From Candidatus Nitrosopelagicus sp. (GTDB taxonomy: Archaea > Thermoproteota > Nitrososphaeria > Nitrososphaerales > Nitrosopumilaceae): a stretch of DNA of 64,000 bases. Below are positions 22,936 through 28,731 of the stretch, in pieces (the stretch's first letter is position 1; each line of letters starts with the position of its first letter). The DNA is taken from positions 1 through 64,000 of the forward strand of contig JAOMBO010000004.1 in assembly GCA_028344575.1 (NCBI GenBank), written 5' to 3'. Made by a program: the position numbers and the translations under genes. Under the pieces are notes generated by a model. That model saw nothing but the letters and a program-made list of their open reading frames with translations. It ran no database searches and was not told the DNA's origin.

Positions 22936-23964
22936 TTATGTGCCTGTGATCATTACTTTTATTGAATTATTATTTTCTATAGCACATTCAAATGCTTCTT
23001 TAGAATCTTTTATTGAAAATTTATGAGTTACAAGATTTTTAACATTTATTGAATGATTTTGTATCAGATCAATTGCTGTTCTGATATCCTCATTTGATGC
23101 TGCATATGTAGTATGTATGGTAATTTCTTTTGAATATACCTGTGACATATCGATTTCACACAACAAATCCTTTCTTGGTTGACCAAATAGCATTATCTTG
23201 CCACCCTTTCTAACTAATTCAATTGCTTGTTTCAATATTTCTATATTTGATGTTGCAATAATGATTAAATCCACTCCTTGGTTGTTAGTTATCTTTTTGA
23301 TATTATCAAAATTTTCAATTGTTGAATTAATACCCTGACCTAAATTCATCTCTTCACAAATTTTTAGTTTTTCTTTATTCACGTCAACACAAAAAATTTG
23401 ATTAAATTTGTAATGTTTTGCAAGCATTGCATGCATTATTCCTATTGTCCCCATTCCAAAAATTACACATGAATCATTTTCCATGGCTTTGATTTTATTC
23501 CATGCTCTAACACAACATCCAAGCGGTTCAATTAACACTCCCTCTTCATTACTAATTGAATCTGATAATGGAATTAAGCAACCATTCAATACATTCCATT
23601 CAGGCAAAACAAATTTTTCTGACATTCCACATGGTTCTAAACTATCTTCATACTTTTCACACATTGTATGATTTCCATGTAGACAATAATGACATTCATT
23701 ACAATGAGTGTGATGGTGAACAAAAACTCTCATTCCTTCTGAAATTTCTGTATTAACTTTTTGTCCTTTTTTAAGAACTGTACCACAAATTTCATGTCCT
23801 AGTTTTGTTGATGGTTTACTTGAATCACCATTCAAATTTTCTTTATCTGTACCACAAATACCACAACCATCTAATTTTATGAGTACGTCACCTTTTCCAA
23901 TTATAGGTTCATTGACTTCTTTGACAATTACTGAAGAATTTTCCGTAATATCTACCGCTTTCAT
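22936..23964 (-). CDS. Zinc-dependent alcohol/polyol dehydrogenase (MDR family), ebo-like operon
   Basis: GCGICGTDKENLNGD, GHEICGTV, structural-zinc cysteines CNECHYCLHGNHTMCE, GMGTIGI. Confidence 0.9.
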   Translation of the reverse strand: MKAVDITENSSVIVKEVNEPIIGKGDVLIKLDGCGICGTDKENLNGDSSKPSTKLGHEICGTVLKKGQKVNTEISEGMRVFVHHHTHCNECHYCLHGNHTMCEKYEDSLEPCGMSEKFVLPEWNVLNGCLIPLSDSISNEEGVLIEPLGCCVRAWNKIKAMENDSCVIFGMGTIGIMHAMLAKHYKFNQIFCVDVNKEKLKICEEMNLGQGINSTIENFDNIKKITNNQGVDLIIIATSNIEILKQAIELVRKGGKIMLFGQPRKDLLCEIDMSQVYSKEITIHTTYAASNEDIRTAIDLIQNHSINVKNLVTHKFSIKDSKEAFECAIENNNSIKVMITGT

Positions 23965-25265
23965 AGTTCTAAAAAATCTAGTATTCTAGGCATAATTTCG
24001 ACCATATCTAATTTTTCAGGTAATTTTTTTTCTGAAATTGTAGTGCCGATAATTGGCAATTTGGAATTTTCATTATCAATTATTCCATGAGACCCATGAA
24101 TTAATGATGTATCATGACTGATTTTTTTTGTCTTCATATCAAAAAATAATTCTAATGGATCAAATCCTGGTTTTCTATGTATGTCTACTGAAAAAGTAAA
24201 GTCTGGTGCATTTTTTTCATCTCTCCACCAATGATAATTAAACCATGAATTTTTTTCAGATGTTAAGATGATATCTCCACTTCTTTCATTGTCTATGTGT
24301 AATTCTTTTTGTTTATCTTTATTGAAAATTTCTCCAATGGGTTGTTTCTCAAAAATTTCCGTCACTGTTTTCTCGAATCCGGGTTTTATGAAGACATGTG
24401 CAATTTGATGGTCACACATTGCAAACGCCTTACTTAACTCAAAATCAATATACTCTTTTCCGCCTATCTTCCTAGTTTGTAACAATGAATTTTCATTAAG
24501 AATTATGTTTGGAGAAATTGAATTGTCTACTTGATTAAAACCATATTCTGAAAGTATTATTATTTCATATTCTATTTTTTCTGATTGTAAAAAGTCAATC
24601 AAATTTCCTATCAATTCGTCAACTTCTGATAAGCTATTTTGAAATTCTATGCTTTCTGGCCCATATTTCTGACCTGCATAATCCAAATGTGGAATATAGG
24701 TGAAAAGTAAATCTGGATTGTGATTCTTTATTGTAATTTTTGTGGCATTGATAATCCATTTACTTGATTCTATTGATGCAAATGGTCCCCAATACCATTT
24801 TAAATCAAATTCACCTATCTCTTTAACTATTTCTTCATAGAAATTTTCAGGTTTAGAATAACACCACATAAGAAAATTATTTTCTAAATGTAGTGGTTTT
24901 GGAGTTATCACGATATCTGATTTTGCAAAAAGTGTATTTTGCCAAAACAATACTGCAGTTTTTATTTTAGAATTCTTTTCTTTCAAAACATCCCAAATTT
25001 GTGGTTTTTTTACTAATTTTGATGGCTGATCCCAAAAATGAATTTCTTTGTACGTTTTATCATAATATCCATTTGCAATAATACCGTGTTCACTTGGATA
25101 TGTGCCTGTTAGAATACTTGATTGTGCACTACATGTGACTGCTGGAAATGTTGGAATTAGTACTGAGTGATTATTTTCTATAATTTTGGAAATATTTTTT
25201 GTTTTATTTTTATCAATATTTGCCCCAACTAATCCTGGAATATCTAAGACAATGATTTTCTTCAT
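23961..25265 (-). CDS. Alkaline phosphatase/nucleotide pyrophosphatase superfamily protein, EboF-like
   Basis: [53 protein letters not shown]. Confidence 0.85.
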   Translation of the reverse strand: [434 protein letters not shown]

Positions 25266-25293
25266 CTCTATATGATTAATTTTTATTGTATAA

Positions 25294-26957: not shown

Positions 26958-27758
26958 TTAATTATTAATCTTATAATTTCTTGATTTTTTTAAAAATGAT
27001 TCTGGATTATTATACAATAGCTTTTCAATTTCATTTTCACTAAAGCCCTCGTTTTCCATGTATAGTGCAGTTTTAGGTACGCTTAGAGGATCTGACTTAC
27101 CCCAATCAGCTGAACTATTTATCAAAATATTTTCTATTCCATATTTTTTGATTATATTTACAGCTCGAATTGGATTTAATTTTGTATCTGGGTAAACTGT
27201 TATTCCTGAAAATACTTCGTATGATTTTGACAATTCAATTGTTTCTTCTGTGTTATGGTCTACTATGATTCGTGTTTGGTCGACTCCTGTCTCCTCAATT
27301 ATCTCAAATGTACGTTTAGTACCTTCTAATTTGTTGATGTGTGGAGTATGGACTATGATTGGGCATCCCAACTCATTTCCTAAAATTAATTGTTGTTTCA
27401 AAATGTCCTCTTCTTGTGAAGTTATATCGTCAAACCCTATTTCTCCTAATGCTACTACGTTATCCCTTTCCAGATATCGCTGAATGTTTTCCATAGCTTC
27501 TTTTGATAATTTTTCATTGTTAGCTTCTCTAGGATTAATTGATATTGCACAGAAATGATTTATTCCAAACTCTTTTGCCCTATTTCTCTCAAATGTGATT
27601 ATATGTTCCCAATAATCTTCTAATGTCTTATACGAGGTTCTTTCTTGGCCTAACCAAAATGATGGCTCGATTACTGTTTTAATTCCCGCCAATCGCATAT
27701 TCTCATAATCATCGGTTGTTCGTGAATACATGTGAATATGTGGATCAATGAATTTCAA
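26958..27758 (-). CDS. TatD-family metal-dependent hydrolase, EboB-like
   Basis: MKFIDPHIHMYSRTTDDYENMRLAGIKTVIEPSFWLGQERT; VALGEIGFDD; VHTPH; DHN. Confidence 0.87.
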   Translation of the reverse strand: MKFIDPHIHMYSRTTDDYENMRLAGIKTVIEPSFWLGQERTSYKTLEDYWEHIITFERNRAKEFGINHFCAISINPREANNEKLSKEAMENIQRYLERDNVVALGEIGFDDITSQEEDILKQQLILGNELGCPIIVHTPHINKLEGTKRTFEIIEETGVDQTRIIVDHNTEETIELSKSYEVFSGITVYPDTKLNPIRAVNIIKKYGIENILINSSADWGKSDPLSVPKTALYMENEGFSENEIEKLLYNNPESFLKKSRNYKINN

Positions 27759-28585
27759 TTATGAATTAGATTATTCAAGAAAATAAAAGTCTCACTAGCA
27801 GCTTCTCTGGGTTTTTCAGCATATGTGTATAACTCTGCAGTCAAAAAACCATCATAATTAATTTCCTTTAGATTGGAATAAATTTTTACAAAATCAATTT
27901 CTCCATATCCTGGTATCAAATGATAGTGGATGGAATTTTTACAATCACTGATATGGGTATGAAATATTTTATCTTTAAATTTATGAATCACTTTTGAAAA
28001 ATTTTCATTTAAGACTGCAACATGACAAGTATCTAAATTCAATCCTAAATTTTTAAAATTTTTAGATACTTCAAAAACATCGTGTGATTTTTCTATTAAA
28101 AGACCTGGTTCATATTCCATACAAATTAAAATACTATTTTTTTCCGCAAATTCTAAAATTTCTGATAATGATTTGTTGATCTGTGTCATTTCATTTTCAA
28201 ATATTTCCGTATTTTTTATTCCAGATGTAATACATACTGAAGGTGCACTTAACTCCGCAGCTACTTCTATTGCTTTTTTTGTATATTCCACTCTCCATTT
28301 TCTTAATGTTTCATTTTTGTTAGATAATGATGGTTCAAATTTTTCATCATTTCCATTTTCTAAATTCCATCCTAATACGGTATTTGCATTAATGTTTGAA
28401 ACTAATAATTTTCTATTCTCTAAACTACTCTTAATCTGTTTTAATTTTTCATTTGATAATGGTAAAAATGCATGTGGTGTGTCTGCCACTATCTCAAGAC
28501 CATCATATCCAACATCTGAAATTATTTCAATTGTTTCTAGTAATGAAAATTTTGTAAATGCATTTGTACTGAATCCTGTTTTCAT
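27755..28585 (-). CDS. Sugar phosphate isomerase/epimerase (paralog of 26138-26956)
   Basis: MKTGFSTNAFTKFSLLETIEIISDVGYDGLEIVADTPHAFLPL; LIPGYGEIDF. Confidence 0.85.
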   Translation of the reverse strand: MKTGFSTNAFTKFSLLETIEIISDVGYDGLEIVADTPHAFLPLSNEKLKQIKSSLENRKLLVSNINANTVLGWNLENGNDEKFEPSLSNKNETLRKWRVEYTKKAIEVAAELSAPSVCITSGIKNTEIFENEMTQINKSLSEILEFAEKNSILICMEYEPGLLIEKSHDVFEVSKNFKNLGLNLDTCHVAVLNENFSKVIHKFKDKIFHTHISDCKNSIHYHLIPGYGEIDFVKIYSNLKEINYDGFLTAELYTYAEKPREAASETFIFLNNLIHN

Positions 28586-28731
28586 TCTTTCATCTTCAAA
28601 ATATTGACAACTTCAGTTTTTGCTCTTTGGACCATTTCAGGCTCAATGTATGAATCTGGATTCAAGATTTTTGCTGTTTCCCAGATCAAATTTGTGATTT
28701 TTGCATCTATTTCATGTTCTTTTCTATTCAT
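28582..28731 (-). CDS. Small helical protein (49 aa), first gene of ebo-like operon
   Basis: Manual ORF MNRKEHEIDAKITNLIWETAKILNPDSYIEPEMVQRAKTEVVNILKMKE*; its stop overlaps the next start (ATGA). Not in ORF track. Confidence 0.72.
   Translation of the reverse strand: MNRKEHEIDAKITNLIWETAKILNPDSYIEPEMVQRAKTEVVNILKMKE

Follow-up and report, generated by a model that had tools for sequence, protein, structure and literature searches.

An ebo-type operon in Candidatus Nitrosopelagicus

The operon described here is a relative of the bacterial biosynthetic operon ebo (eboABCDEF) and is encoded by Candidatus Nitrosopelagicus, an ammonia-oxidizing archaeon (AOA). The stretch of DNA that was analyzed, referred to below as the window, comprises positions 1 to 64,000 of contig JAOMBO010000004.1; the host genome (assembly GCA_028344575.1) is archaeal, 0.86 Mb in size, and 66% complete. 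Positions 22936-28731 of the window contain seven minus-strand open reading frames (ORFs) that form one operon, with successive spacing of -4, -4, 1, 1, 28, and -4 nt. An earlier interpretation of this DNA (the sequence-only reading) had described seven packed minus-strand genes with 4-nt overlaps or 1-28-nt gaps, had assigned their domains, and had pointed out that a TIM barrel is duplicated. The ORF coordinates bear out the packing, and the domain searches returned the same identities, with PF01261 in both TIM barrels. The genes, in order, are:

28582-28731, minus strand: A49, a 49-aa helical small protein and the first gene; homologs occupy the same position elsewhere
27755-28585, minus strand: TIM1, a xylose-isomerase-like TIM barrel of the ketose/inosose epimerase-isomerase class (PF01261; Glu-Asp-His-Glu metal set present)
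26958-27758, minus strand: EboB-like metal hydrolase of the TatD superfamily with a TTG start (PF01026; TatD-type metal ligands present)
26138-26956, minus strand: TIM2, the second TIM barrel (PF01261; E152, D182, H208, and E249 invariant)
25294-26136, minus strand: EboC-like membrane prenyltransferase of the UbiA superfamily (PF01040; first Asp motif kept, second replaced)
23961-25265, minus strand: EboF-like protein of the alkaline phosphatase (AP) superfamily (PF01663; of the six NPP zinc ligands checked, Thr44 is kept and four are replaced)
22936-23964, minus strand: MDR zinc alcohol/polyol dehydrogenase (PF08240/PF00107; distinct from the housekeeping AOA paralog)

Kinship with EboB, EboC, and EboF

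The relationship to ebo is carried by three proteins. The TatD-superfamily protein shares 44-49% full-length identity with TatD genes of Mycetohabitans, Azospirillum, Streptomyces, and others, many of which are annotated beside EboA. The EboB model scores 390-490 bits for EboB vs 17-30 bits for generic AOA TatD proteins, and the TatD-type metal ligands are intact. The AP protein (PF01663, 184 bits) has 34-39% identity to canonical EboF, with invariant residues in common from end to end. The prenyltransferase finds its best NCBIfam match in EboC (NF035940) with 140 bits, which is below the cut-off of 250; the EboC of a sister cluster in groundwater Acidobacteria (L051) reaches 260 bits and passes it. 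In a phylogenetic tree, the EboC proteins including that of the window form one clade against the DGGGP-synthase-like UbiA proteins of AOA. Nearly all EboC proteins have, instead of the second Asp motif, a short motif with Glu as its last residue, and in the window AKNE stands in place of the DxxGD motif of DGGGP synthase.

The EboB tree groups the EboA-containing clusters in one clade and places the AOA proteins in another, together with haloarchaea, groundwater bacteria, and members of the PVC (Planctomycetes-Verrucomicrobia-Chlamydiae) group. The EboF tree agrees, with the EboA-containing type again forming a separate clade. By sequence comparison, then, the TatD, UbiA, and AP proteins are homologs of EboB, EboC, and EboF and not generic enzymes, and the EboB and EboF lineage is placed by the trees as sister to, not inside, the EboA-containing type. 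Taken together, kinship of the operon with ebo is close to certain. The sequence-only reading had seen an ebo-type operon in an ammonia oxidizer, with TatD and AP proteins that looked like EboB and EboF, and it was right on both points: trees, motif replacement, co-occurrence, and gene order agree, and the best matches of the three proteins do not lie outside the Ebo families. It needs amending in that the proteins represent a lineage sister to the canonical Ebo proteins, with UbiA and TIM scores below the NCBIfam cut-offs for EboC and EboE. In Planctomycetota, seven loci (L052-L056, L059, and L067) have EboB homologs with no other ebo gene detected nearby.

Distribution and gene order

Of 121 relatives, the 8 with EboB are also precisely those with good EboC matches. 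A synteny survey in Nitrososphaerota, a check that the sequence-only reading had proposed, revealed that the order A49-TIM1-EboB-TIM2-EboC-EboF-MDR is kept in five genera of Nitrosopumilaceae and is hence not peculiar to this genome; in those genera other than Nitrosopelagicus, MDR lies on the strand opposite to the operon. A soil form in Nitrososphaeraceae reads EboB-TIM2-EboC-EboF-TIM3 with MDR at one end, and in two soil genomes (G079 and G110) the set is interrupted by other genes. By our count, EboB proper (>85 bits) is encoded by ∼60 of 400 genomes within the order, or ∼15% of the AOA sampled; a larger tally of 105 EboB-matching genomes includes generic TatD proteins at 17-30 bits. Two soil AOA (G252 and G285) have EboB matches with many stop codons, which are probably decaying copies. 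A scan of viral contigs for the EboF-like AP protein found no relatives.

Homologs of A49 lie in the same position in six further loci (L032, L033, L049, L215, L216, and L217) and keep N14, W17, E18, A20, P25, and I29 invariant, and a relative is found beside EboB in the groundwater Acidobacteria cluster. Because it recurs in place across five genera and neighbors EboB in Acidobacteria, the A49 ORF is, on conservation, a real gene. The idea that A49 is a remnant of EboA was rejected, as the two have no profile match. In the same Acidobacteria contig, the ebo-type genes are succeeded by a pfkB-type sugar kinase and one more gene (L051:4666-6940), a possible heptose context.

Absence of EboA, EboD, and EboE

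The searches for the remaining Ebo proteins covered 11-12 AOA genomes, several of them complete, with alignment-based profiles for EboA and EboE. EboA is not present in the window and its profile found nothing in 12 AOA genomes; the same seeds detect EboA in canonical clusters. EboD is likewise not present in the window, and PF01761 was above cut-off in none of 11 AOA genomes, with a control search positive in 11 of 14. Nitrosopelagicus gave a faint PF01761 hit that, at 21 bits, stays under the cut-off; we did not score it as EboD, and it is presumably glycerol-1-phosphate dehydrogenase, a guess from the superfamily. These results uphold the earlier statement that EboA and EboD are lacking. 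The sequence-only reading had also matched the TIM barrel to EboE, and here it needs correcting, as EboE is missing too: the EboE profile gave ≤20 bits across 12 AOA genomes, and the window TIM barrels score 33-40 bits against the model of EboE, a ∼380-aa TIM barrel (NF035939, cut-off 250). The operon is related to ebo and works like ebo, yet it is not a standard eboABCDEF.

TIM barrels, dehydrogenase, and the EboF active site

The four metal ligands of TIM1 and TIM2 (E152, D182, H208, and E249 in TIM2) are kept in all 17 sequences, and this Glu-Asp-His-Glu set is that of the D-tagatose 3-epimerase/IolI class. Structure prediction of the TIM barrels had been suggested as a check, and the TIM2 model (predicted local distance difference test, pLDDT, 94.6) has a ketose-epimerase/IolI-type fold, with UlaE, MJ1311, Art22, and IolI as its closest folds. 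For the TIM barrels together, the nearest folds are ketose 3-epimerases, IolI, and AsbF, and the 3-keto-glucoside 4-epimerase YcjR is among the structural matches. Against IolO (5-keto-L-gluconate epimerase, NF041099), the scores are 76-90 bits, below the cut-off of 300. Judging from ligands and fold, both barrels are active-looking members of the ketose-epimerase class.

The MDR protein comes closest to dehydrogenases of the threonine, sorbitol, and IolM types, with 120 bits against the IolM model (cut-off 450). Housekeeping MDRs of AOA form a separate clade, apart from the operon MDRs, with 100/100 support; monophyly of all operon MDRs in Nitrosopumilaceae is neither shown nor rejected (approximately unbiased test, p-AU 0.23). 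In nearly all AOA clusters read, an MDR from one of two subfamilies adjoins the operon or EboB. MDR looks to have been recruited repeatedly to ebo-type clusters, since soil AOA use a different subfamily beside EboB. The sequence-only reading had put the dehydrogenase in the place of EboD. As a true partner of the operon it stands, but not as a stand-in, because a dehydrogenase cannot perform the cyclization of EboD.

The EboF model (pLDDT 93.7) has an NPP-type fold, and the NPP two-zinc site is not kept. The ligands of that site in Xac NPP are D54, T90, D210, H214, D257, and H258. In the alignment, T90 and D210 are kept as T44 and D195, and D54, H214, D257, and H258 correspond to P10, Q199, E240, and Y241. 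Among 23 EboF proteins of both types, Y241 is invariant and Q199 nearly so. Since most of the checked zinc ligands are lost, the label of phosphodiesterase appears doubtful for EboF and should not be taken at face value.

The operon as a cassette

Comparison with close relatives delimits the operon as a unit of gain or loss:

22934-28781: gain/loss cassette consisting of the whole operon; missing at this site in four relatives (L168, L169, L170, and L173)
28779-29465, minus strand: left flank, an aquaporin gene outside the pathway (flank comparison with congeners)
22674-22928, plus strand: right flank, a convergent 84-aa gene outside the pathway (ORF and flank comparison with congeners)

The right edge lies at 22934 and the left edge near 28780-28790. 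In the four relatives the aquaporin gene, which is present in most congeners, directly adjoins the convergent 84-aa gene and an FAD oxidoreductase, both of which flank the right side of the operon in the window, and the flanking DNA is 89-99% identical to that of the window. This clean empty site means that all seven genes, including the A49 ORF and MDR, were gained or lost as a single block. The G+C content of the cassette is 28.7% vs 32.8% for the window overall. Contamination was considered and rejected, as the block occurs between archaeal flanks in two assemblies and close relatives have the empty site. Other Nitrosopelagicus genomes (L171-L180) carry other genes after the aquaporin, and from such comparisons the site behind it (the 28779/22934 junction) looks like a variable spot. 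Adjoining the cassette at 28779-30213 are the aquaporin gene, a low-molecular-weight phosphatase/ArsC-like gene, and an ArsR-like regulator; by its gene content, this region looks like an arsenic operon with the aquaporin replacing ArsB. Nitrosopelagicus carries, as a cassette, a biosynthetic operon that is sister to bacterial ebo and has no EboA, EboD, or EboE.

A proposed pathway and its alternatives

In place of EboD, related clusters point to inositol-1-phosphate synthase (MIPS). On two haloarchaeal plasmids, MIPS and EboF lie next to EboB-TIM-EboC-TIM (all on one strand in Natronococcus), and in Streptomyces MIPS adjoins an SCO3242-type EboC. A proteobacterial contig (L066) has a NUDIX gene overlapping MIPS, two other genes, TIM-EboB-TIM-EboC, and EboF further on. 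MIPS was over cut-off in 11 of 11 AOA tested with PF01658, the informative model (PF07994 gave weak matches), and dehydroquinate synthase in none of the 11. MIPS is a likelier ring source than MDR because it is in the cluster in haloarchaea, near it in the bacterium, and elsewhere in the AOA genomes. A cyclitol, made by either EboD or MIPS, is the simplest theme common to the clusters, and we infer that AOA use their general MIPS for the operon pathway. Two features of the proteobacterial contig are recorded here: the NUDIX gene that overlaps MIPS upstream of the ebo-type cluster (L066:167-1929) is IDI-like by inspection, and between MIPS and TIM1 lies a secreted-looking protein with a squalene-hopene-cyclase-like stretch (PF13243; L066:2872-4071).

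With a little less than even confidence, we propose that the operon encodes an EboD-less ebo pathway, fed by MIPS, that makes a prenylated cyclitol-type membrane lipid. In this scheme, MDR would oxidize a cyclitol supplied by the general MIPS of the cell to a keto-cyclitol (inosose), which TIM1 and TIM2 would rearrange or dehydrate via metal-held enediolate chemistry. EboC would add a prenyl chain in the membrane, EboB would hydrolyze an intermediate, and the last step would fall to EboF, which probably does not act as a conventional two-zinc phosphodiesterase. Either a prenylated cyclitol or a phenol of such origin would result, destined for the membrane or surface layer or serving as an export carrier. 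Enzymes of the EboD superfamily that use sedoheptulose 7-phosphate yield keto-cyclitols in one step, and MIPS yields a fully reduced cyclitol; this difference would explain why a dehydrogenase was recruited where EboD is missing. A wider version of the proposal is possible but somewhat unlikely to hold in full. It posits a further class of ebo (archaea and a few bacteria; TIM-EboB-TIM-EboC-EboF) that uses a MIPS cyclitol in place of a dehydroquinate-synthase-like cyclase and makes an undescribed prenylated inositol or inosose membrane lipid in AOA, with EboF being non-hydrolytic or single-metal.

Several points weigh against the proposal. To our knowledge, neither a product nor an in vivo reaction has been established for any ebo pathway. 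Both the TIM barrels and MDR belong to broad families, and their best models score far below cut-off (IolO 90 of 300 bits, IolM 120 of 450). The MIPS gene of AOA lies apart from the operon, occurs also in two operon-less genomes (G025 and G028), and may be unrelated to the operon. Finally, no dehydrogenase was seen in the core of the haloarchaeal and Streptomyces MIPS clusters as read, and the oxidation logic therefore does not hold throughout.

Gene neighborhoods give some weight to a different acceptor, a sugar, which we regard as possible though rather doubtful. Here, MDR would make a keto-sugar, the TIM barrels would epimerize it, and EboC would act like decaprenyl-phosphate phosphoribose synthase to give a polyprenyl-linked sugar carrier for surface glycans. 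In G044 and G061 the operon sits inside a surface-sugar island (NeuB, cytidylyltransferase, DegT aminotransferase, and Polysacc_synt_2), and its vicinity in L036, L087, and L110 includes sugar genes (NAD-epimerases, a glycosyltransferase, or a nucleotidyltransferase); the structural match to YcjR fits as well. However, the window operon is outside any glycan island, and the ring-makers MIPS or EboD recur in related clusters. The surface-sugar neighborhood also fits, without proving it, the lipid-carrier/export idea proposed for the ebo operon of Nostoc (PMC6282210).

Alternatively, AOA could make the same compound as bacteria from a cyclitol that is imported or supplied by another, as yet unknown, cyclase. 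The bacterial ebo compound is probably lipid-linked and is tied to sunscreen export and grazer resistance. The EboB, EboC, and EboF core is common to both systems, but the failure to find EboD, EboE, and EboA in the AOA genomes tested makes this improbable. A polyol or inositol catabolism module that happens to include a UbiA protein would account for the resemblance of the TIM barrels and MDR to IolO, IolE, and IolM; it is very unlikely, as EboB, EboC, and EboF always accompany them, all scores are far below the Iol cut-offs, and a membrane prenyltransferase has no place in catabolism. That TatD, UbiA, and AP genes unrelated to ebo lie together by chance is scarcely credible in view of the trees, motif replacements, co-occurrence, and conserved order, even with UbiA and TIM scores below the NCBIfam EboC and EboE cut-offs.

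Significance and comparison with known systems

The ebo pathway is widespread, and the archaeal version is a new handle on what the pathway makes. A version without EboD but with EboB, EboC, and EboF sets the ring-making step apart from the core chemistry. From the relatives that contain MIPS, inositol emerges as a concrete candidate precursor. The operon also extends the ebo-type pathway to archaea, including cells of the open ocean. In such cells, a new membrane or surface lipid could bear on grazing, viruses, and lipid biomarkers.

The operon eboABCDEF was described by Yurchenko et al. in 2016 (PMC5133447) and studied in Nostoc mutants (PMC6282210), and the EDB cluster of Pseudomonas is also ebo; our search of the available literature found no report of ebo genes in ammonia-oxidizing archaea. 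Like eboABCDEF, the window has EboB, EboC, and EboF homologs in one operon with a xylose-isomerase-like TIM barrel. In contrast, it lacks EboA, EboD, and EboE, has two short TIM barrels, an MDR, and the 49-aa protein, and, in the trees of EboB and EboF, branches apart from the clade that has EboA. The bacterial EboC-type prenyltransferase Ubi-297 farnesylates the aromatic acid 8-HQA when produced heterologously (PMC9235831); it belongs to the same UbiA subgroup as the window EboC and is encoded in an ebo cluster, albeit one with EboA to EboE. IolM and IolO of inositol catabolism are among the best NCBIfam relatives of MDR and the TIM barrels, but the window proteins reach 120 of 450 and 90 of 300 bits, respectively, and the operon has no catabolic partners.

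The actinobacterial MIPS-SCO3242-TIM-EboA-EboB-EboE-EboF clusters share with the window a ring-maker other than EboD, a relative of EboC, and a short TIM barrel. They differ in keeping EboA and EboE and in having MIPS inside the operon, with no MDR seen. The haloarchaeal EboB-TIM-EboC-TIM clusters with MIPS and EboF likewise hold MIPS in the cluster, with neither an MDR nor a 49-aa gene found there, but they share with the window two short TIM barrels and an arrangement free of EboA and EboE.

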